Part shown: one piece after another, positions 808 to 12,876 of the stretch
How the letters are laid out: every line of letters starts with the position of its first letter
How positions within the stretch are numbered: position 1 is the stretch's first letter
Assembly (NCBI GenBank): GCA_003153935.1
Contig: PMCA01000034.1
Coordinates: forward strand, 76,684 to 97,812
DNA length: 21,129 nucleotides
Source of the DNA: Elusimicrobiota bacterium
GTDB taxonomy: Bacteria > CAYTYR01 > UBA6262
Direction of reading: 5' to 3'
The notes under the pieces: model-generated
Told to the model about the DNA's origin: nothing
Databases searched by the model: none
The model's input: only the letters and a program-made list of their open reading frames with translations
Position numbers and translations under genes: made by a program

Positions 808-1455
808 TTGAAAAAGATACGCTTCCTGGGTATTATTCCTGCCCGCGGCGGCAGTAAAGGTATCCCGCGCAAGAATATAAAAATGCTGGCGGGTAAGCCA
901 CTTATTGCCTGGTCCATAGCAGCGGCCCAGGAGTCAAAATTACTGGATAGATTTGTGGTTTCTACCGAAGATGCCGAAATTACCGCGGTAGCCAGGAAAT
1001 ACGGGGCGGAAGTGCTCGACCGCCCAAAGGGACTGGCCAGCGACACGGCCAGCACTTTGTCGGTCCTGCAGCATATTTTAGGAATAATTGACGCTGAAAA
1101 TATAGTTTTATTACAACCTACTTCGCCGGTACGTGAAAAAGGTCTTATTGATAAGTGTATTAGGCAATTTAAAAAAACTAAGGTTGATAATCTGGCTACA
1201 GGTTATATTTGCAAACTAATGGCCTACGGCAGTTATACAAAGCGCCGCCAGGAACTTAAAGGCTTCTTTTATGATGACGGTAATGTCTACGTCGCCAAAT
1301 CTTCATTGGTAAAAAAGGGGACATTATTCGGCAAAAAAGTCGGGCGGGTTTACATCAGCCGGGAACAGAACTTTGAAATAGATGATGAGTTTGATTTTTG
1401 GTTGAATGAGCAAATATTAACCCGGTACAAAAAAAAGATGGCTAAAAAGAAATAA
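808..1455 (+). CDS. neuA: CMP-N-acetylneuraminate-type cytidylyltransferase
   Basis: Cytoplasmic enzyme that activates a nonulosonic acid (sialic, legionaminic or pseudaminic type) with CTP to give a CMP-sugar. The 215-residue length fits the short form of the family. Seen in the product: the nucleotide-binding signature RGGSKGIPRKN (13-23), STED (52-55), SDTAST (78-83), LLQPTSPVR (101-109), DDGNVYV (156-162) and the C-terminal IDDEFDF (191-197). The start is TTG with a good Shine-Dalgarno site. The gene follows the aminotransferase with one base between stop and start. No NeuB-type synthase or NeuC-type epimerase is in the window; they may lie upstream. A second, KdsB-like cytidylyltransferase at 5852 suggests the cluster makes two different CMP-sugars. 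The symbol is a family name: legF or pseF homologues look alike and the exact sugar cannot be read from the sequence. Confidence 0.88.
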   Translation: MKKIRFLGIIPARGGSKGIPRKNIKMLAGKPLIAWSIAAAQESKLLDRFVVSTEDAEITAVARKYGAEVLDRPKGLASDTASTLSVLQHILGIIDAENIVLLQPTSPVREKGLIDKCIRQFKKTKVDNLATGYICKLMAYGSYTKRRQELKGFFYDDGNVYVAKSSLVKKGTLFGKKVGRVYISREQNFEIDDEFDFWLNEQILTRYKKKMAKKK

Positions 1456-4208: not shown

Positions 4209-4269
4209 AAAATAGTGAAATAGGTAGCGCCAGGCAGTGATAGAGTAAAAAATTAAGGCGGGCCGATTG

Positions 4270-5052
4270 ATGAAACGGAAGCTTTATACCAAAAGCCACG
4301 ATCTGAATATCTTAAAGGAAATAGATCACCAGGGTGGTCAGTTTACGGCGGAAGAACACGCCTACGCTGTCGAAAAGGAATTCGGGGACACTCATTTTAA
4401 AACCAAGGACGATCTCCTGCGCTGGTATTTACAGGGTAATTGGAACAAGCTGCCGTCTCTTTCTTTCCTGATAGAGCATATAATCAAAAACCGGTACCAA
4501 AATGTCCTGTCTTTAGGCTCCGGGCAATGTGTCCTAGAATACTTATTGAAGTTATCCTTGACCGAAGATGTGGCGGTGGTGGCCAGCGATTTTGACGCCT
4601 ATTTTATTAAGAAGGCGAAGCAGTTTTTCCCGGAAATAACGGCCGTGACTTTTGATTTATTCCGGGAGGATATGAACGACCTGGAAAACAAGGTTAAACG
4701 AAAATTCGATCTGGCCGTGTTTTTCTTCTCCGCTTACGTTATGGACGACCGGCAGCTTGTCAATATTTTCAGCGGGCTGAAGAAGTCGGGGGTAAAAGAA
4801 ATAGTCGATTTTCACGCTGGGTATCTGGATATGGCCGGTGTTTTTCGCTATTGGCTGGAGCCCTTGACTAAAAATAATTTATTGCGAAGGGTTTTTAAAA
4901 AATCTCTTCTCAACCAGGGAGATTATATCGGTAAGTTTTATGGGTTTGCCAGAAGCCGCGGTGTCCTGCGGTCATTATACAAAGAAAGCGGGCTGGAGAT
5001 AGTGAAGGAGACGTCGGTCGGAGACTACAAGTATGTGGCTATCCTCAAATAG
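4270..5052 (+). CDS. Class I SAM-dependent methyltransferase-like protein
   Basis: A 260-residue soluble protein with a Rossmann-type SAM-binding fold. Motif I reads VLSLGSGQC (LGSGQC at 82-87), followed by an acidic residue after strand 2 (ASDFD, Asp107). A third strand region, FDLAVFFFSAYVMDD, sits where the post-motif usually lies. The N-terminal 60 residues are charged and of unknown role. I prefer the ATG at 4270 to the TTG three bases upstream: both share the AAGGCGG ribosome site, and TTG-ATG would simply add one Met. The gene follows a gap of 61 bases after the flippase, the largest gap in the window, and no promoter or terminator is evident there. It opens the enzyme block with the aldolase and the KdsB-like gene. 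The likely job is O- or N-methylation of a sugar or its precursor; the substrate is unknown. Confidence 0.72.
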   Translation: MKRKLYTKSHDLNILKEIDHQGGQFTAEEHAYAVEKEFGDTHFKTKDDLLRWYLQGNWNKLPSLSFLIEHIIKNRYQNVLSLGSGQCVLEYLLKLSLTEDVAVVASDFDAYFIKKAKQFFPEITAVTFDLFREDMNDLENKVKRKFDLAVFFFSAYVMDDRQLVNIFSGLKKSGVKEIVDFHAGYLDMAGVFRYWLEPLTKNNLLRRVFKKSLLNQGDYIGKFYGFARSRGVLRSLYKESGLEIVKETSVGDYKYVAILK

Positions 5053-5068
5053 TGACTATAAAGGAGCG

Positions 5069-5075
5069 AAAGGGG
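5069..5075 (+). promoter_or_regulatory. Shine-Dalgarno site deciding the aldolase start
   Basis: AAAGGGG lies 6 bases before ATG 5082. An in-frame GTG at 5052 would overlap the previous stop codon but has no site of its own. The ATG gives a product whose catalytic residues fall at nearly the same numbers as in E. coli HpaI, so 5082 is the better start. Confidence 0.75.
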
Positions 5076-5081
5076 TTTAAA

Positions 5082-5849
5082 ATGAACGGTACCCTTAAGG
5101 TAAAATTGCAACGGAGAGAAATTACTATCGGTTCGTGGATCACTTTGGGCCATCCCGCCATTGCCGAGATAATGGCCCAGGCCGGATTTGACTGGCTGGT
5201 AGTCGATATGGAGCATTCGGCGATAACCTTGCATGAAGCCCAGCAATTAATACAGGTCATTGAGTTATCCGGTGTCACCCCCTTGGTCAGGGTGGGAGAA
5301 AACGACCCTTGCCTTATCAAACGGGTAATGGACGCAGGCGCTTATGGCGTGATCGTGCCCATGGTCAATACCAAGGCGGAAGCCGAGCGCGCGGTAAAAG
5401 CGGTTAAATATCCGCCCACAGGCACCAGGGGCGTGGGGTTGGCCCGGGCCCAGGGATATGGGATGGATTTTGATAATTATCGGCACAAGGTGAACAAAGA
5501 CAGCCTGGTAATCGTGCAAATTGAGCACATACAAGCGGTGGAGAACCTGGAAGATATTTTAAGTACGGTGGGAATAGACGCTTTCTTTGTCGGGCCCTAT
5601 GATCTGTCAGGCTCTTTGGGTGTCCCCGGTCAGTTAAAGCATCCGAAAGTGCTTAAGGCGCTGGCGGAGGTGGGAAGAATAAGCAAACATTATAAGGCGG
5701 TACCGGGCTATCATGTCGTAAAGCCCGAAGCAGCAGAAATGGCGCGGAAAATAAAAGAAGGATACAGGTTCTTAGCTTACTGCTTTGATGCGCTATTCCT
5801 GGCGACGAAATGCACTGAAGATTTGGCTGCTATAAGACGGAAGGGGTAA
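5082..5849 (+). CDS. HpcH/HpaI-family class II pyruvate aldolase
   Basis: Metal-dependent aldolase of the HpaI/GarL type, which reversibly joins pyruvate to an aldehyde to give a 4-hydroxy-2-keto acid. At 255 residues it is standard length. The catalytic set is complete: Asp42 and His45 in VVDMEHS, Arg70 in PLVRVG, metal ligands Glu148 in VQIEH and Asp174 in GPYDLSGSLG. E. coli HpaI numbers, from memory, are 42, 45, 70, 149 and 175. The family is usually catabolic (aromatic or glucarate breakdown). Here it sits directly before a KdsB-like cytidylyltransferase (stop and ATG two bases apart) in a polysaccharide cluster. That suggests a biosynthetic aldol addition of pyruvate to an aldose, giving a 3-deoxy-2-ulosonic acid. 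The family call is firm; the biosynthetic role is inference. Confidence 0.92.
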   Translation: MNGTLKVKLQRREITIGSWITLGHPAIAEIMAQAGFDWLVVDMEHSAITLHEAQQLIQVIELSGVTPLVRVGENDPCLIKRVMDAGAYGVIVPMVNTKAEAERAVKAVKYPPTGTRGVGLARAQGYGMDFDNYRHKVNKDSLVIVQIEHIQAVENLEDILSTVGIDAFFVGPYDLSGSLGVPGQLKHPKVLKALAEVGRISKHYKAVPGYHVVKPEAAEMARKIKEGYRFLAYCFDALFLATKCTEDLAAIRRKG

Positions 5850-5851
5850 AA

Positions 5852-6655
5852 ATGGACAAGGATAACAAGTTGAACATAGTAGGCGTCATACCGGCGCGCA
5901 TGGCCTCAACCCGCTTCCCTGGGAAGCCCCTGGCCAAAATTTGCGGGATACCGATGGTCGGTCATGTATATTTCAGGAGCAAAATATCTAAAATATTGGA
6001 TGACGTCTATATCGCGACCTGCGATGAGGAGATCGCCAAGTATGCCGAATCCATAGGCGGGAAAGCGGTCATGACCGCCTCGACCCATGAACGGGCTTCC
6101 GACCGGACCCAGGAAGCTATGCTGAAAATAGAGCGGCAAACGGGCAGGAGAGTGGATATAGTCGTGATGATCCAGGGTGATGAGCCGATGTTCTACCCCG
6201 CGATGATAGATGAGGTAATGGCCCCAATGATAGCCGACCGGTCCATAGAAATAGTGAATTTAATGTCGGAAATTACCTCCCGGAGCGAGCAGGATGATCC
6301 AAACGTGGTTAAAGTTGTAGCCAGTCTGGATAACCAGGCCCTGTATTTCTCCCGTGAGCCCATACCGTCAAGAAAAAAAGCCGGCAATAATACTTATCAC
6401 ATGTATAAACAGGTAGCTATTATTCCTTTTAAAAGAGATTTCCTGATCAAGTACAGCGCGCTAAAGCCGACGCCTCACGAGATCATTGAGTCGGTCGACA
6501 TGTTGAGACTTTTGGAGCATGGCTATAAGATAAAGATGGCGGTGACGAATTTCTCCACTTCCGGCGTGGATACGCCCGCTGATTTGCAAAGAGTGGAAAA
6601 ACTAATGGCCAATGACACCTTATTGCCTGGATACCGGGAAAAGGAAAGCAGATGA
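5852..6655 (+). CDS. kdsB: KdsB-like 3-deoxy-ulosonate cytidylyltransferase, divergent
   Basis: CMP-transferring enzyme of the KdsB family, normally making CMP-Kdo for lipopolysaccharide or capsule. The 267 residues show IPARMASTRFPGKP (13-26), the metal- and CTP-binding IQGDEP (107-112), DPNVVKVV, ALYFSREPIPSRK (around 163-175) and the C-terminal metal site GVDTP (238-242). Two regions differ from textbook KdsB: the usual SGT(D/E)R is RASDR (81-85), and the usual RH(I/L)GIYxY strand is KQVAIIPF (186-193). This suggests a substrate other than plain Kdo. The Shine-Dalgarno site GGAAGGGG precedes ATG 5852, and the stop overlaps the next ATG (ATGA at 6652). The symbol records family membership. 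Being paired with an aldolase and located outside a core Kdo operon, it is probably a specialised paralogue and not the housekeeping enzyme. Confidence 0.88.
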   Translation: MDKDNKLNIVGVIPARMASTRFPGKPLAKICGIPMVGHVYFRSKISKILDDVYIATCDEEIAKYAESIGGKAVMTASTHERASDRTQEAMLKIERQTGRRVDIVVMIQGDEPMFYPAMIDEVMAPMIADRSIEIVNLMSEITSRSEQDDPNVVKVVASLDNQALYFSREPIPSRKKAGNNTYHMYKQVAIIPFKRDFLIKYSALKPTPHEIIESVDMLRLLEHGYKIKMAVTNFSTSGVDTPADLQRVEKLMANDTLLPGYREKESR

Positions 6656-7635
6656 AAGAAAGCGACATAAGGAATGTAAATGTTCTAAATGAATACCTGA
6701 AGCTGGTGGAAAAAGACGTAAAGAACTTTTTCGATCCTGGTTCGTTTGTTGCCGTAAAATGTCCGGCCTGTTCCGGCGGGAGTTTTACTCCGGAGTTTAA
6801 TAAAATAGGGTTCCAATACGTCAGCTGCCAGAAATGTCGAACGCTTTTTGTCAATCCCCGGCCGCCATTTGAAACGCTTAATAAGTTTTACTCCGATTCT
6901 CCTTCTACCGGCTTCTGGGTGGAAAAGTTTTTTAATCCGATGGCGGAAGCGCGGAGAGAAAAAATATTTCGGCCCAGGGCTGAATATGCCGCTAAAATCT
7001 TCGCCAACCGGGAAAATATAGTAGTAGGGGATATAGGAGCCGGGTTCGGCTTATTCCTTGAAGAATTAAGAAAAATAATGCCGGCTAACGAATATATCGC
7101 CATCGAGCCGTCCACGGACATGTCCCATATATGCTCCGCCAAAGGCTTGAAGGTTAAATGCATGTGCCTGGAAGAAGTTAGCGGGTTGGACGGGCGCTTT
7201 GACGTGCTTACCGCGTTTGAGCTGCTGGAACATTTGTATGACCCGGCGGTTTTCTTAAGTAAAGCGTTTTCGCTGCTAAAGCCAGGCGGCCATTTATTAA
7301 TGACCACCCTTAATGGCTTGGGTTTTGATATTTTACTCCTTTGGCAGCTGTCGAAAAGCGTTTCGCCGCCGCATCACCTTAATTTCTTAAATCCGGAATC
7401 CGCCCAACTGCTCCTGGAAAAGACCGGGTTTGAGGTGATCGAGACCGCTACCCCCGGTAGCCTGGACTGGGATATTGTGGAGAGCCGGATCCTGAACGAT
7501 AGCGCTCCGGTTGACCGTTTTTGGAAAATGGTGGCGGATAAAGGGACGCCTGCCGCCAAGCAGGAATTGCAGGAATGGATCGCCGGAAACAAATTCAGCT
7601 CGCATCTCAGGGTGCTGGCCAGGAAGCCTTCATAA
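6652..7635 (+). CDS. SAM methyltransferase with N-terminal zinc ribbon
   Basis: A 327-residue protein with two recognisable parts. An N-terminal four-cysteine zinc ribbon (Cys37, Cys40, Cys59, Cys62) ends in the typical TLFVNPRPP. It is followed by a class I methyltransferase domain with motif I DIGAGFG (127-133), acidic IEP after strand 2, FELLEHLYDP (189-198), LLKPGGHLLMTT and PPHHLNF (239-245). Proteins of this layout are common in O-antigen and capsule clusters, where they are thought to methylate sugars. It lacks the extra C-terminal domain of the TylC3-type sugar C-methyltransferases, so I favour O-methylation, but weakly. The start overlaps the stop of the KdsB-like gene (ATGA), implying coupled translation. 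A link to the product of the aldolase/KdsB pair is plausible from position alone. Confidence 0.85.
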   Translation: MKESDIRNVNVLNEYLKLVEKDVKNFFDPGSFVAVKCPACSGGSFTPEFNKIGFQYVSCQKCRTLFVNPRPPFETLNKFYSDSPSTGFWVEKFFNPMAEARREKIFRPRAEYAAKIFANRENIVVGDIGAGFGLFLEELRKIMPANEYIAIEPSTDMSHICSAKGLKVKCMCLEEVSGLDGRFDVLTAFELLEHLYDPAVFLSKAFSLLKPGGHLLMTTLNGLGFDILLLWQLSKSVSPPHHLNFLNPESAQLLLEKTGFEVIETATPGSLDWDIVESRILNDSAPVDRFWKMVADKGTPAAKQELQEWIAGNKFSSHLRVLARKPS

Positions 7636-7650
7636 CAAACATTAATTAAT

Positions 7651-7659
7651 GGGGAAGAG
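7651..7659 (+). promoter_or_regulatory. Shine-Dalgarno site deciding the Gfo/Idh start
   Basis: GGGGAAGAG lies 7 bases before ATG 7667. The earlier in-frame ATG at 7649 overlaps this site and has no purine-rich stretch of its own, so it is probably not used. Confidence 0.7.
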
Positions 7660-7666
7660 TGATAAA

Positions 7667-8716
7667 ATGGCGAAAAATGCGAAATTACGCGTAGGTATAG
7701 CCGGTTACGGGGTGGTAGGAAAGCGCCGGCACCAGTTCATTGAACAACACCCGCGGTTAAGAACGGTAGCTATTTGTGACCAGCATTTTACCAGTCAGGA
7801 CAAAACATTGGATGGTATGCGCAGTTTTACCAATTACCGCCAGCTGCTGAAAGAGCCGCTCGATGTTTTGTTCGTGTCTTTGCCGAATTACCTGGCGGCG
7901 GAAGTTACCATTGCCGGGCTGGAAAGGGGTTTGCATGTCTTTTGTGAGAAACCGCCCGGTTGCGATGTCCAGGATATTCGCCGGGTGATCAAAGCGGAAA
8001 AGAAACATCCCGGCCTGGTGCTGAAATACGGCTTTAACCACCGCTATCATGATTCCGTAAGGGAGGCCCTGCGTATCATAAGGTCCGGAGAGTTGGGCGA
8101 GATAATCAATATGCGCGGGATCTACGGCAAAAGCAAGATAATACCTTTTTCCGGAGGCTGGCGTTCCGAACGCAAATACGCCGGGGGAGGTATTTTGCTG
8201 GATCAAGGCATACACATGGTAGATCTCATGAGACTTTTCTGCGGTGAATTCCCGGAGGTGAAAAGCTATGTTTCCAATGACTATTGGCAACATGACGTTG
8301 AGGATAATGTTTACGCCCTGCTGAAGGATACCAGGGGCCGGGTGGCAATGTTGCATTCCAGCGCCACCCAATGGGAGCATCGCTTTTCCCTGGAGATCGC
8401 TTTTACCGGGGGATATATAGAATTGCGGGGGATACTTTCGGGTTCCAAAAGCTATGGTGAAGAGAAACTGATAGTGGCCAAGCGCGATAATGATAACGCC
8501 ACGTCCGCCGGGGAAGAAGTCACCGTGTACCAGGAGGATAATTCCTGGCGCGATGAAATATTCGAATTTGCCGAAGCGGCGATAAACGGCCGGCCTGTAC
8601 AATCGGGTACCAGCGCTGATGCCCTGGCCACCATGGAGCTGGTATACAGGATTTACGCAGCTGACACTGAGTGGCGGGATAAATTTAACATTAAAGATCC
8701 TAAAAACAAAAAATAA
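7667..8716 (+). CDS. Gfo/Idh/MocA-family NAD(P)-dependent oxidoreductase
   Basis: A 349-residue oxidoreductase expected to oxidise or reduce a sugar or cyclitol hydroxyl with NAD(P). Seen: the N-terminal Rossmann motif GYGVVG (13-18), the EKPP signature (94-97), whose Lys is catalytic in the family, and GGGILLDQGIHMVD (173-186) carrying the conserved Asp179, His183 and Asp186. The C-terminal alpha/beta domain follows, including a region rich in strands at 210-260. The ATG at 7667 is preferred on ribosome-site grounds; starting at 7649 would add six residues. Relatives in polysaccharide clusters include WbpB- and WlbA-type 3-dehydrogenases of UDP-GlcNAcA, but no acetyltransferase or UDP-GlcNAc dehydrogenase partner is in the window. 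Its position between the zinc-ribbon methyltransferase and the SIS isomerase suggests a place in the ulosonic-acid pathway. The substrate is unknown. Confidence 0.92.
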   Translation: MAKNAKLRVGIAGYGVVGKRRHQFIEQHPRLRTVAICDQHFTSQDKTLDGMRSFTNYRQLLKEPLDVLFVSLPNYLAAEVTIAGLERGLHVFCEKPPGCDVQDIRRVIKAEKKHPGLVLKYGFNHRYHDSVREALRIIRSGELGEIINMRGIYGKSKIIPFSGGWRSERKYAGGGILLDQGIHMVDLMRLFCGEFPEVKSYVSNDYWQHDVEDNVYALLKDTRGRVAMLHSSATQWEHRFSLEIAFTGGYIELRGILSGSKSYGEEKLIVAKRDNDNATSAGEEVTVYQEDNSWRDEIFEFAEAAINGRPVQSGTSADALATMELVYRIYAADTEWRDKFNIKDPKNKK

Positions 8717-8730
8717 AGGAGACAAGGCGA

Positions 8731-9378
8731 ATGCCCAAGATGGTCAAGAAACAATATCACAATAAACTGGACGAGATATATAAGCAAAGCGGGGATGTGG
8801 TTTCCTACCTTAAAAGTTACGGGAACTATTTGTCGGAATTACTGGCGGCATTGGACCATGATGAGGTAAGGCGGGTAGCGGACTGCTTCCTTAAGGCGAG
8901 AGCGCTGGCGGCAACCATATATTTTGTGGGTAACGGCGGGAGCGCGGCGACGGCTTCGCATTTTGCTCAGGACCTTACAGAAGTCGGCAGGAAAGCCGGG
9001 CTGAACGGTTTCAGGACCCTGAGCTTAACTGATAGCGTGCCTTATATCACGGCTTTGGCCAATGATTACGGCTACGAATCTGTTTTTACCTGGCAGCTGG
9101 CGGAGCTATTTAAGAAAAATGATGTCCTGGTGGCGATATCCGCCAGCGGGAACAGCCCCAATGTGGTTAACGCGGTACAATACGCAAAAAAATCAGGTGG
9201 CGTAACCATAGGATTGGTAGGGTTCGACGGCGGGAAATTGAAAACCATGTGTGACCATGTCATAAATGTAAAAACCAGGCCTGGTGAGTACGGCCCAGTA
9301 GAGGACGTTCATATGGTCCTGGACCATATGATCACTACTTATCTATTAATGAAATTGAGGCGGTCTCAGGATGAATAA
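8731..9378 (+). CDS. SIS-domain sugar phosphate isomerase, GmhA-like
   Basis: A 215-residue single SIS domain protein without CBS domains, thus closer to GmhA (sedoheptulose-7-phosphate isomerase) than to KpsF/KdsD arabinose-5-phosphate isomerase. Seen: VGNGGSAATASHF (GNGGSA at 67-72, His77), the turn ALANDYGYE (108-116), the phosphate-binding SASGNSPN (137-144) and C-terminal YGPVEDVHMVLDH with His194. In E. coli GmhA, from memory, the active-site zinc is held by a His and a Glu four residues later; here the second position is Asp81 (HFAQD). A good AAGGAG sits 9 bases before ATG 8731. The gene's last 8 bases overlap the next gene. It probably supplies an aldose phosphate (heptose or other) for the pathway; a DiaA-like non-enzymatic SIS protein is less likely here. 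Confidence 0.86.
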   Translation: MPKMVKKQYHNKLDEIYKQSGDVVSYLKSYGNYLSELLAALDHDEVRRVADCFLKARALAATIYFVGNGGSAATASHFAQDLTEVGRKAGLNGFRTLSLTDSVPYITALANDYGYESVFTWQLAELFKKNDVLVAISASGNSPNVVNAVQYAKKSGGVTIGLVGFDGGKLKTMCDHVINVKTRPGEYGPVEDVHMVLDHMITTYLLMKLRRSQDE

Positions 9379-10276
9379 AGGCATAAAGATACTCATAGGT
9401 CCGTCCACGTTTGCCGCAGTGGACAGGGAGCCGATGGATAAATTGGTTAGGAACGGCTTTGAGGTCATTCCTAATCCGTTCGGGAGGAAGCTTACACGGG
9501 AAGAACTGCTTAAGTTGTTACCGGGTGTCCAGGGTTTAATCGCAGGTTTGGAAACTTTAGACCGTCAGGTACTGCAGAATTCTGAGCTGAAGGTTATTTC
9601 ACGCTGCGGCGCCGGCATAAGCAACGTAGACCTTAATGCCGCCCAAGAACTGGGCATAAAAGTGTTTTCTACTCCCGACGCTCCGACGGAAGCGGTGGCG
9701 GAACTGGTCATAGGGGCTATGATCAGTTTATTAAGACATATTCCGCAGATGAATTTGGACCTGCATGGCGGCCAATGGGCAAAGAAAATAGGTCTCCAGT
9801 TGGAAGGCAAAACCGTAGCCATAATCGGTTTTGGCCGCATCGGCCGTCGGGTGGCAGAGTTATTACAGCCGTTTAGAACAAAAATAATTGTCATCGATCC
9901 TATAGTTAATAAAGAGGCCGGGTTAGAAATCCGGTCCCTGAAAGAGGCTTTGCCGCTGGCAGACATCATAACCATTCACGCCAGCGGCGAAGATGCGATC
10001 CTGGGGCCTAGGGAATTCGCCTTGATGAAGAAAGGAGCTTTATTACTGAACTGCGCCCGGGGTAACTTGGTAGACGAAAAACAATTGTTGGCAGCGTTGG
10101 AAAGCGGTACCGTACAAGAAGCCTGGTTAGACTGTTTTGTGGATGAGCCTTATAGCGGTCCCCTGACCAAATATCCCCAAGTTATCATCACTCCTCATGT
10201 CGGCTCATATACCGTGGAGTGCCGCCGGCAAATGGAAATGGAAGCAGTGGATAATCTTATAAAGGCCTTTAAATGA
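9371..10276 (+). CDS. D-2-hydroxyacid dehydrogenase (PGDH/SerA-like)
   Basis: NAD-dependent enzyme of the D-isomer 2-hydroxyacid dehydrogenase family, interconverting a 2-hydroxy acid and a 2-keto acid. The 301 residues comprise the catalytic and nucleotide-binding domains only; there is no C-terminal ACT or ASB regulatory domain as in many serine-pathway SerA proteins. Seen: SRCGAGISNVD (77-87), GFGRIG (153-158) followed by the acidic NAD-binding Asp176, and the catalytic residues Arg230 (NCARG), Glu259 (VDEP) and His276 (TPHVGS). It overlaps the SIS gene by 8 bases and the phosphatase gene by an ATGA. Located in a sugar cluster, it may act on an acid intermediate of the glycan pathway rather than make serine. 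A housekeeping 3-phosphoglycerate dehydrogenase role is possible but does not fit the context. The substrate is unknown. Confidence 0.9.
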   Translation: MNKGIKILIGPSTFAAVDREPMDKLVRNGFEVIPNPFGRKLTREELLKLLPGVQGLIAGLETLDRQVLQNSELKVISRCGAGISNVDLNAAQELGIKVFSTPDAPTEAVAELVIGAMISLLRHIPQMNLDLHGGQWAKKIGLQLEGKTVAIIGFGRIGRRVAELLQPFRTKIIVIDPIVNKEAGLEIRSLKEALPLADIITIHASGEDAILGPREFALMKKGALLLNCARGNLVDEKQLLAALESGTVQEAWLDCFVDEPYSGPLTKYPQVIITPHVGSYTVECRRQMEMEAVDNLIKAFK

Positions 10277-11037
10277 TTAACGGAAAGGTTATTATGATTG
10301 ATCTGGAAAAGTTGTTGGCAATCGCCGAACAGGCGGCTCGCCGTGCAGGAACACTTTTAGCCAAGCATATGGTCAGCGGCCGGGAATTAAGATCAAGCCA
10401 TGGGCACGATATCAAGATAGCGGCTGATGTCCAGTCAGAAACCTGCCTGATAAATTATCTGAAGACTAAAACCGATTACCCCATCCTGACCGAGGAAACA
10501 GGCATGATCGGCAGAGAAGTCCAGGACGGTTGTATGTGGGTAGTTGATCCCCTGGACGGGAGCATGAATTTTCTGCGCGGTATACCCCTAAACTGTATTG
10601 CCCTGGGACTTTGGAGGAAGAATAAACCTGTACTCGGGGTGATTTATGATTTCCATAGAAATGAGCTTTTTGCCGGGATAGCTGATAAAGCGGCCTGGTT
10701 GAACGGAGAACAAATAAAAGTGAGCCGCACCGCCAAGAAAAAGGACGCGATCATTTGTACCGGTTTCCCCGTTAATACTGATTATTCTGCCGCCGGTATC
10801 GCGGCCTTGATAAAGCAAATACAAGAGTATAAGAAGGTACGGCTATTTGGTTCCGCTGCCTTATCGCTGGCCTACGTGGCGTCGGGCCGGGTGGATGCTT
10901 ATTACGAAAACGATATCATGATCTGGGATGTGGCCGCTGGCTTAGCCATAGTGAGCGGAGCCGGGGGAGTAACGCGGCTACGACCCTCAGTAAAGAAGAA
11001 TGCTTTTAAGGTTTATGCCGCTAACGGACATTTTTAG
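10273..11037 (+). CDS. Inositol monophosphatase-family sugar phosphatase
   Basis: Mg-dependent phosphatase of the IMPase/SuhB/CysQ/HisN family. Seen in the 254-residue product: the metal-binding EET (74-76), the signature VVDPLDGSMNF (90-100), GSAALSLAYVASGRVDAYYE (193-212) and IWDVAAG (217-223). These are all the metal and phosphate-binding elements. Two starts are possible: ATG 10273, which overlaps the previous stop (ATGA), and ATG 10294, which has GGAAAGG just upstream and gives a 247-residue product starting where most relatives start. I list the first but they are close to equal. Next to an isomerase and an aldolase, the natural job is to remove phosphate from a sugar phosphate so that a free aldose can be condensed with pyruvate, or to act on a hydroxyacid phosphate. 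The family is certain; the substrate is inferred. Confidence 0.9.
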   Translation: MINGKVIMIDLEKLLAIAEQAARRAGTLLAKHMVSGRELRSSHGHDIKIAADVQSETCLINYLKTKTDYPILTEETGMIGREVQDGCMWVVDPLDGSMNFLRGIPLNCIALGLWRKNKPVLGVIYDFHRNELFAGIADKAAWLNGEQIKVSRTAKKKDAIICTGFPVNTDYSAAGIAALIKQIQEYKKVRLFGSAALSLAYVASGRVDAYYENDIMIWDVAAGLAIVSGAGGVTRLRPSVKKNAFKVYAANGHF

Positions 11038-11061: not shown

Positions 11062-12876
11062 ATGCCAAGTGAATTCATAATCGGTTCAGAAAAGCAGATA
11101 CTAAACCAGGTCCGGAAGCTGCCAGCTAATGCCGCCTGGCAATGGTGCTATTTTGGCATTAACATGGGACGTAAGGAAAGATTAAGAGAGAAGTTGACCA
11201 GTGCCCGAAGATACCATTATGCGCCCGAGCTTTATGAGCTTTCCCGGAGTTTGAAGCAGCCGTTTCTGGATTGGATGACCAGGGTTAATTCCCAGCATCA
11301 AAATGATCTTAAATGGTGGGCGATGAGATTCGCTTCTAAATCGCCGTTCCAAACGAACTTCTTTCTGCTGGTTTGTTATTTCAACTTAGTAGATTCCTGG
11401 CTGGCTGGTCAAGCACCCCCGGAGCGGCAATTATTGATGATCGTTGTGGAAGATCCATACCTGCATCGGCTCCTGGCGGAACGGTCGTCCAAATATGATA
11501 GCCGCAGGGTGCAGGTTAAGGCCTCTGTTTGCCGTATACTGCGGGCCGGGGTTTACTATTGGGCGAAATCTTTGTTAGTACCGTTCACTTTTTTATCAAG
11601 GCAATTAAGGGCGACGCTAAAAAACCAGTATGTTAAAATAAAATTCAGAGACCGGTTGCACCTGTTGCGCAAGCTCCATAAAGAAGTGATAATTAATACT
11701 TTTATCGAAGAAAGAAGTTTCCGGGAGAACGGCTTTCATGATTATTATATGGGACAGTTGGCTGAATATTATGAGGGTAACGGGAAAAAAGTCGCCATAT
11801 CGTCACAGACTAATCTGGCCGTCGCTTTAAAGAAAAAAGCCTTAATATCCGGCATTAACTTCTGTCTTACGGATCTGTATTTAAAAACCGCCGATTGGCT
11901 AAGAGTGCTGTTTAAGCGTCCTTCCGTTCAAGTGACAAAAGATGCGCGGATTTTTAAGGGCGTTGATTATACGCTTTTGTTTGTCCGTGAATTTAACCGG
12001 GAGAAATCTTCGCTCTCATTTTCTTTTAATCTTTGCGAATATTACGCTTATAGAAACTATTTTGCCGATAATAAGCAAATTAAGCTGTTTGTTTATCTAT
12101 TCGAGAACCAGCCTTGGGAAAAAATGACCATAATGGCGCTGAGAGCAGCCAATCCGCATTGCAAATGCGCTGGTTACCAACATAGTACCGTTCCTATCAT
12201 GTTGATGAACTATTTTCTGGGGGCAGGAGAATATCAATATATTCCTCTGCCTGACTACATAATCACCAACGGTAACTATAATGAGAAGATTATGGCGGCG
12301 GCCGGATATAAGAGTACCAAAATATTAAATGGGGGTTCGCTGCGATACGCGAAAAAGACCGATGAAAAGAATCACATAAGGAAAAGAAAATCGGGCGAAA
12401 CTCTCAAGGTGTTGGTGCTATTAACTTTTTCATTGCCTTATAGTTTGGAAATAATTTATGGTGTCAAGAACATGTTTTATCCGGAGAGCAATTGCCGGTA
12501 TTATGTCAGGCCTCACCCGAACTTATTTAACGGCAAAATAGAGAAAGCGATACAGGAAATCGATAATATGGAGATTATTCAATCGGGATCAATGGATGAA
12601 GTCTTAGCGGAAATGGACATCGTTGTTTATTCTACTACTACAGCCGCCCTGGAAGCCCTTTATAAGGGATTGTCTGTTTACAAAGTAGCCACCGAATTAA
12701 TTGACCTGGACCTGTTAGACGACTTAAATATTAAAAAGCATTATAATTCTGATAAGTACTTACCGGAGTCAAGAATGCCCTATTTTTGTTATGACAGCCA
12801 GGTCGAGCTATCTTTTAATTATATAATCGGCGAACCGGTAAGAAAAGATACCTGGTTAGCGCTTTTGCAGAACTAA
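11062..12876 (+). CDS. Large putative GT-B-like surface carbohydrate transferase (unassigned)
   Basis: A 604-residue soluble protein that I cannot assign firmly. There are two parts. Residues 1-300 are rich in basic and aromatic residues and have no known motif. Residues 300-604 resemble a GT-B transferase: LFVYLFENQPWEK (342-354), GYQHSTVP (371-378), LPDYIITNGNYNEKI, NGGSLRY (423-429), RPHPNL with HP at 485-486, and VVYSTTTAALEAL (521-533). The HP motif plus Ser/Thr cluster parallels the protein at 1470 and, more loosely, bacterial sialyl- and Kdo-transferases and CDP-glycerol-type transferases. From memory it also recalls a surface-carbohydrate family of Leptospira O-antigen loci. The Shine-Dalgarno site is weak. 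It directly follows the enzyme block that would make a CMP-ulosonic acid, so it is my first candidate for the enzyme that uses it. Confidence 0.58.
   Translation: MPSEFIIGSEKQILNQVRKLPANAAWQWCYFGINMGRKERLREKLTSARRYHYAPELYELSRSLKQPFLDWMTRVNSQHQNDLKWWAMRFASKSPFQTNFFLLVCYFNLVDSWLAGQAPPERQLLMIVVEDPYLHRLLAERSSKYDSRRVQVKASVCRILRAGVYYWAKSLLVPFTFLSRQLRATLKNQYVKIKFRDRLHLLRKLHKEVIINTFIEERSFRENGFHDYYMGQLAEYYEGNGKKVAISSQTNLAVALKKKALISGINFCLTDLYLKTADWLRVLFKRPSVQVTKDARIFKGVDYTLLFVREFNREKSSLSFSFNLCEYYAYRNYFADNKQIKLFVYLFENQPWEKMTIMALRAANPHCKCAGYQHSTVPIMLMNYFLGAGEYQYIPLPDYIITNGNYNEKIMAAAGYKSTKILNGGSLRYAKKTDEKNHIRKRKSGETLKVLVLLTFSLPYSLEIIYGVKNMFYPESNCRYYVRPHPNLFNGKIEKAIQEIDNMEIIQSGSMDEVLAEMDIVVYSTTTAALEALYKGLSVYKVATELIDLDLLDDLNIKKHYNSDKYLPESRMPYFCYDSQVELSFNYIIGEPVRKDTWLALLQN

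Follow-up and report, generated by a model that had tools for sequence, protein, structure and literature searches.

To our knowledge, the described routes to cytidine monophosphate (CMP)-activated 3-deoxy-D-manno-oct-2-ulosonic acid (Kdo) and to CMP-activated acids of the sialic type build the 2-keto acid from phosphoenolpyruvate (PEP), using KdsA or NeuB/NANS. The canonical CMP-Kdo pathway (KdsD, KdsA, KdsC, KdsB) includes an isomerase and a phosphatase and ends in a cytidylyltransferase of the KdsB family; the NeuB/NeuA pathways for nonulosonic acids (sialic, legionaminic and pseudaminic acid) also lead to a CMP-activated ulosonic acid. The kpsF/kpsU duplicates of the Escherichia coli capsule are a known case of a surface-polysaccharide locus with a SIS isomerase and a second KdsB homologue. 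The 3-deoxy-pentulosonic acid of Klebsiella K38 was considered as a chemical precedent; gene data for it were not found. The stretch of DNA analysed here, called the window, comprises 21,129 nucleotides from an Elusimicrobiota bacterium (assembly GCA_003153935.1, contig PMCA01000034.1; G000:C14:76684-97812) and contains a cluster of eight genes in which an HpaI-type aldolase is combined with a KdsB-like cytidylyltransferase. We consider it probable that this cluster is a variant of a widespread surface-glycan cassette in which an aldolase route leads to a CMP-activated 2-ulosonic acid. The cassette differs from the CMP-Kdo pathway in that the carbon-carbon bond would be formed by the aldolase and not by the PEP-dependent KdsA, that SIS isomerase and phosphatase belong to other families or are absent, and that its KdsB lacks two conserved motifs. 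With the NeuB/NeuA pathways it has in common a NeuA-like CMP-transferase in some organisms and DegT, glycosyltransferase and flippase genes in the vicinity, but the cassette itself is without NeuB and several cassette genomes have none. The E. coli duplicates differ in retaining the Kdo-type motifs in KpsU and in the absence of an aldolase.

Eight open reading frames (ORFs) were confirmed in the window, all on the plus strand between 4267/4270 and 11037, with junctions of -1, +2, -4, +13, +14, -8 and -4 bases between successive ORFs. Scoring with Pfam and NCBIfam profiles against their gathering or equivalog cut-offs agreed with the families named in the earlier note, so that its description of eight enzymes in one tight overlapping run was confirmed. 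The host assembly (1.75 Mb, 95% complete, from a small phylum) also contains the full ordinary Kdo pathway on contig C15, with kdsB, pyrG, kdsA, kdsD, kdsC and lpt genes; kdsB and kdsA were called by profile (kdsA 399 bits, cut-off 314) and the others by reading the neighbourhood. KdsA and KdsC were not found in the aldolase cluster, both being encoded on that other contig. A neuB gene (326.7 bits) is located 8.9 kb upstream of the aldolase and outside the window, followed by neuC and other genes towards a NeuA-like gene at the left side of the window. Judged by this gene order the NeuB module appears to have a NeuA of its own, and because the host kdsB is located on C15 the KdsB-like gene of the cluster is a second KdsB. 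The cassette would be an additional route in this host, beside the Kdo pathway and the NeuB/NeuC module. The window locus itself would therefore fail the search filter of the earlier note, which asked for neighbourhoods without kdsA or neuB nearby.

The aldolase reaches 133.6 bits with PF03328 (HpcH_HpaI, gathering cut-off 25) and is a member of this superfamily, but it stays below the NCBIfam equivalog cut-offs for HpaI (196.6 versus 368.8 bits), GarL (186.5 versus 406.8) and RhmA (165.4 versus 441). The closest solved structures are GarL, YfaU/RhmA and HpaI. Alignment to these structures revealed that H55, R80, E158 and D184 are invariant across 20 cassette aldolases; from work on HpaI and GarL we take H55 to be the base, R80 to be the mechanistic arginine, and E158 and D184 to bind the metal. 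Judged by these residues the protein is a predicted class II 2-oxoacid aldolase. The catabolic aldolases HpcH/HpaI, GarL and RhmA/YfaU share the fold family and the metal and base residues with the cassette enzyme, which is 36-37% identical to the HpaI sequences compared. The cassette clade has the additional motifs GPYDLS and GxHVV, which the HpaI references lack; cassette aldolases are distinguished from the catabolic enzymes by AQGYG and GxHVV and by their position in glycan loci instead of degradation operons. In vitro, glycolaldehyde, glyceraldehyde and erythrose serve HpcH/HpaI enzymes as acceptors for pyruvate or hydroxypyruvate, and all of the 19 enzymes that accepted hydroxypyruvate among 571 class II aldolases screened belong to this family, for which the physiological roles identified are catabolic, in the retro-aldol direction (PMC7610986). 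Relatives of the aldolase were not found in viral contigs; in phage records two Staphylococcus entries match it at 28% identity.

Among plasmids, the aldolase has its best match (48%) on one from Acuticoccus, where the matching gene is followed in turn by genes for a NeuA-like CMP-transferase, a phosphoglycerate dehydrogenase (PGDH)-like enzyme, a HAD phosphatase and an NAD(P) oxidoreductase. A scan with the aldolases of the window and of this plasmid returned 80 loci, which together with the two query loci gave 82 with an annotated aldolase. A KdsB-like or NeuA-like gene is present within 8 kb of the aldolase in 52 of them, and these cassette loci span about a dozen phyla, among them Omnitrophota, Actinomycetota, Thermodesulfobacteriota, Myxococcota, Nitrospirota, Ignavibacteriota, Planctomycetota and Chloroflexota; further hosts belong to Bacteroidota, Bdellovibrionota, Bacillota, KSB1, SAR324 and Alphaproteobacteria, and one is a Woesearchaeota assembly. 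On the aldolase tree the cassette label is strongly clustered (8 changes versus a shuffled mean of 27.5), with many weak inner branches that leave a strict single origin unproven. Since the scan patterns favour the cassette clade, co-location was tested separately in 193 Omnitrophota genomes, some of which were already among the fetched loci. At least two KdsB homologues were present in 26 of the 29 genomes with an aldolase match compared with 7 of the 164 without one (Fisher 1.2e-22, a value that ignores shared descent). Aldolase and KdsB homologue share a contig in 21 of the 29, at a median distance of 1.0 kb and a maximum of about 5.3 kb among the matches listed. These co-occurrence statistics show a gene grouping far beyond chance, and the pairing of aldolase and KdsB-like gene across phyla, which the earlier note had named beforehand as a check, was borne out. 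In actinobacteria the cassette is rare and patchy, as only 2 of 296 genomes surveyed contain a cassette-type aldolase.

The composition of the 52 cassette loci revealed which genes belong to the common part. A PGDH-like gene is present in 34, Gfo/Idh, SDR oxidoreductase, HAD and methyltransferase genes in 20 each, a SIS gene in 9 and an IMPase gene in 5. HAD accompanies SDR in 16 of 20 cases and is always found with PGDH (20/20); SIS is always found with Gfo/Idh (9/9), and Gfo/Idh and SDR occur together in a single locus. This pairing and near-exclusion indicate a common core combined with either of two interchangeable modules: the core consists of aldolase, CMP-transferase and 2-hydroxyacid dehydrogenase, while phosphatase and oxidoreductase modules alternate, and the window is the Gfo/Idh-SIS-IMPase kind. 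The mapping of SIS isomerase, aldolase, IMPase and KdsB-like enzyme onto the four Kdo roles, as proposed in the earlier note, thus describes a minority arrangement, and the PGDH-like enzyme, regarded there as tailoring, is part of the core. The IMPase and HAD motifs are intact, with HAD phosphatases replacing the IMPase in other cassettes. In L013, L025, L037, L040, L046 and L048 the HAD and SDR genes are accompanied by a recurring gene for an arylformamidase/cyclase-like protein. In L069 (Paenibacillus koleovorans) and L062 an HpaI-type aldolase adjoins PGDH-like genes without a CMP-transferase, which may reflect a related use of this pair.

The SIS protein does not reach the gmhA equivalog TIGR00441 (109 versus 209 bits). 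SIS copies carry an aspartate at the aligned glutamate of the GmhA structures, a position presumably catalytic, and the second histidine is absent in L020, L022, L059 and L074. A heptose acceptor supplied by GmhA, as suggested in the earlier note, is weakened by these scores and residues, and a true GmhA is not supported. The PGDH-like enzyme also remains below its equivalog, SerA (TIGR01327, 205 versus 454 bits, a model that takes in a regulatory domain), and keeps the Arg/Glu/His catalytic set and the NAD-binding domain of D-2-hydroxyacid dehydrogenases. The VRSATK loop of human PHGDH is replaced by AGxE in all 29 cassette PGDHs covering this region, and by AGLE in the window. Because we assume that VRSATK binds the phosphate of 3-phosphoglycerate, this compound is an unlikely substrate.

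From this gene content we predict the catalytic steps, their order and the product as follows. The aldolase would form a 2-keto sugar-acid skeleton from an aldehyde or aldose and a 2-oxoacid donor, which would be pyruvate or, with lower probability, hydroxypyruvate. The KdsB-like enzyme, or the NeuA-like enzyme in other organisms, would place CMP on C2 and trap the 2-keto acid, and the pyrophosphate released would draw the aldol reaction, which is reversible, towards synthesis. Acceptor or donor may be provided, or the product altered, by the 2-hydroxyacid dehydrogenase, the phosphatase (IMPase here, HAD elsewhere) and the oxidoreductase module, which is Gfo/Idh with or without SIS in cassettes of the window's kind and an extended SDR in others; the methyltransferase and a GT-B-like transferase would complete and transfer the sugar. 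The position of PGDH in the core and not in one module suggests that it acts on the common chemistry, so that a hydroxypyruvate donor, provided by this enzyme with or without the phosphatase and leading to a 3-hydroxy, Ko-type ulosonic acid, has to be considered. The use of hydroxypyruvate by members of the aldolase family (PMC7610986) and the constant company of HAD and PGDH fit this variant of the cassette, but the AGxE loop and the 18 of 52 loci without PGDH lower its probability, and we regard it as unlikely.

The KdsB-like enzyme passes the TIGR00466 cut-off for kdsB (165.0 versus 155.2 bits) and misses the NF003948 equivalog (200 versus 281). The KdsBs encoded next to kdsA, the host's own KdsB and the solved enzymes for lipopolysaccharide and capsule contain two Kdo-type motifs, a histidine followed by [LVI]-G (K-H) and LEQLR; the capsule enzyme KpsU (1gq9) is among them. 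In cassette KdsBs the histidine is replaced by glutamine (K-Q) and LEQLR by [VI]D[MLF][LM]R, with ESVDMLR in the window copy; exceptions are the Flavobacteria loci L068, L077 and L085, which have kdsA next door and whose KdsBs retain EQ. These altered sites fall in the C-terminal half, the Kdo-binding part of KdsB (PMC3149649). In the tree, cassette KdsBs and Kdo-pathway KdsBs are located on opposite sides of a branch with an SH-aLRT of 100, and the window KdsB does not group with those encoded beside kdsA. In the three Flavobacteria loci the KdsB homologue is clustered with kdsA, an HpaI-type aldolase, a SIS-like gene and two SDRs, so that KdsA and aldolase occur together there. A study of Leptospira interrogans serovar Lai noted two kdsB genes in just two Leptospira genomes (PMC4758666). 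The additional gene, kdsB1, may be of the cassette type, which would place such a copy in a cultivable organism.

The presence of KdsA and NeuB was examined in 41 cassette-type genomes. NeuB is present in most of them, but neither enzyme was found in the actinobacterial assemblies G015 and G017 and in the Woesearchaeota assembly G023, where, as in others, KdsA-profile matches of 110-140 bits do not reach the cut-off and resemble 3-deoxy-D-arabino-heptulosonate 7-phosphate synthases. NeuB was not found in G035, G038, G041 and G045 (Acuticoccus yangtzensis, an isolate), all with a NeuA-type cassette. In G005, G029 and G039 the only KdsB is of the cassette type, and neither KdsA nor a Kdo-type KdsB was found; G032, with a Kdo-type KdsB and no KdsA, was read as incomplete and left out. 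Acuticoccus is the safest case of a cassette decoupled from NeuB.

The three genomes with a KdsB-type cassette and without KdsA, the separate KdsB clade, the loss of the motifs that KpsU keeps, the link of the second KdsB to the aldolase in Omnitrophota and a GmhA-like SIS protein lacking the C-terminal extension present in the host's KdsD make it quite unlikely that the KdsB-like protein is a spare CMP-Kdo synthetase like KpsU and the SIS protein a KpsF-like enzyme, both using the Kdo of the host beside an unrelated aldolase, even though capsule loci carry redundant kpsF/kpsU copies (PMC13171606), the window protein exceeds the TIGR00466 cut-off and the host makes Kdo. The aldolase might also act late or in reverse, by cleaving or shortening a sugar acid or making a small aldehyde or acid decoration, while the substrate of the CMP-transferase comes from elsewhere, for example from NeuB. 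This would be in line with the retro-aldol catabolism of the family (PMC7610986) and with NeuB in the host and most cassette genomes, but it is decidedly unlikely in view of the three assemblies without NeuB and KdsA, of the NeuB-less Acuticoccus isolate and of the host NeuB upstream of the window, which seems to be paired with its own NeuA at 808-1455. A phosphonate pathway with a PntC-type CMP-transferase (PMC6697681) was ruled out, as the transferase belongs to the KdsB family and the cassette is without a PEP mutase.

Several points weigh against the aldolase route as proposed. The direction known physiologically for the aldolase family is cleavage (PMC7610986), and PGDH, phosphatase or oxidoreductase are missing from some cassette loci, partly because of contig ends. 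Since the host has a full Kdo pathway and, 9 kb from the cassette, NeuB, the KdsB-like enzyme could in principle use another ulosonate. The genomes in which neither KdsA nor NeuB was found are metagenome assemblies whose completeness is not stated; the assemblies without NeuB or without KdsA may be incomplete or contaminated, and an unrecognised type of synthase could exist.

Table 1. Genes of the aldolase cassette and its neighbours in the window.
Gene product	Position	Strand	Basis and remarks
MT1, methyltransferase-like	4267..5052	+	23 bits, under Pfam cut-off 27
HpcH/HpaI-family class II 2-oxoacid aldolase (predicted), cassette clade	5052..5849	+	HpcH_HpaI profile; GTG start, ATG at 5082 possible
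KdsB-like cytidylyltransferase (CTP_transf_3), divergent second copy	5852..6655	+	TIGR00466
S-adenosylmethionine-dependent methyltransferase (Methyltransf_23)	6652..7635	+	Pfam; recurrent accessory gene
Gfo/Idh/MocA oxidoreductase	7649..8716	+	Pfam; together with SIS characteristic of one of the two alternative modules
GmhA-like SIS-domain isomerase	8731..9378	+	Profile and alignment
D-2-hydroxyacid dehydrogenase, PGDH-like (2-Hacid_dh)	9371..10276	+	Profile and alignment
Inositol-monophosphatase-family phosphatase (Inositol_P, IMPase)	10273..11037	+	DPLDGSMN motif kept
TIGR04326-family surface-carbohydrate protein, putative glycosyltransferase	11062..12876	+	NCBIfam; begins 24 bases after the eighth gene
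NeuA/PseF-like cytidylyltransferase	808..1455	+	NCBIfam; probably part of the upstream NeuB/NeuC module, not of the aldolase cassette

Relatives of MT1 were not found in the 80 loci returned by the aldolase scan, and as it was unseen in other cassettes MT1 is probably locus-specific. The TIGR04326 family was found in 14 loci. An AlphaFold2 model of the window protein (pLDDT 80) has a GT-B-like C-terminal half, which makes the protein a plausible transferase. The best structural match (Z 13.1, 4.3 Å over 296 residues) was to NeuC-type epimerases, followed by many GT-B enzymes at Z 11; these matches are generic, so that the fold does not assign the protein as a CMP-sugar transferase or point to another donor. 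Directly behind the NeuA-like gene, a weak match to TIGR04331 (LIC12162 transferase) at positions 1470-2648 may mark the enzyme that transfers the NeuB product. Another NeuB-like protein, longer than the first (509 amino acids, 154 bits to PF03102), is encoded at G000:C14:58586-60115 (L007 1786-3315); its neighbours are a thiamine-diphosphate-type synthase and a small HAD-like protein, and the group looks like another unusual nonulosonic-acid-type module.

Of the aldolase-based route put forward in the earlier note, the recurrent pairing of aldolase and KdsB-like gene without KdsA or NeuB stood, whereas the details on the four roles, on tailoring by PGDH, on the neuB-free filter and on the GmhA heptose had to be revised or found no support. 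No description of a pathway with an HpaI aldolase and a CMP-transferase was found in the open-access literature, a search that leaves subscription papers aside and does not prove the pathway undescribed. Tentatively, and with less confidence than in the cassette itself, we propose a third general route to CMP-ulosonates beside KdsA and NeuB, with an HpaI-type aldolase core and interchangeable modules, which would occur in about a dozen phyla, some of them without Kdo synthesis, and would lead to at least one uncharacterised surface sugar, perhaps a 3-hydroxy ulosonic acid. Taken together, the presence of the aldolase and CMP-transferase set in many unrelated bacteria suggests an undescribed route to Kdo- or sialic-acid-like sugars without a PEP-dependent synthase.

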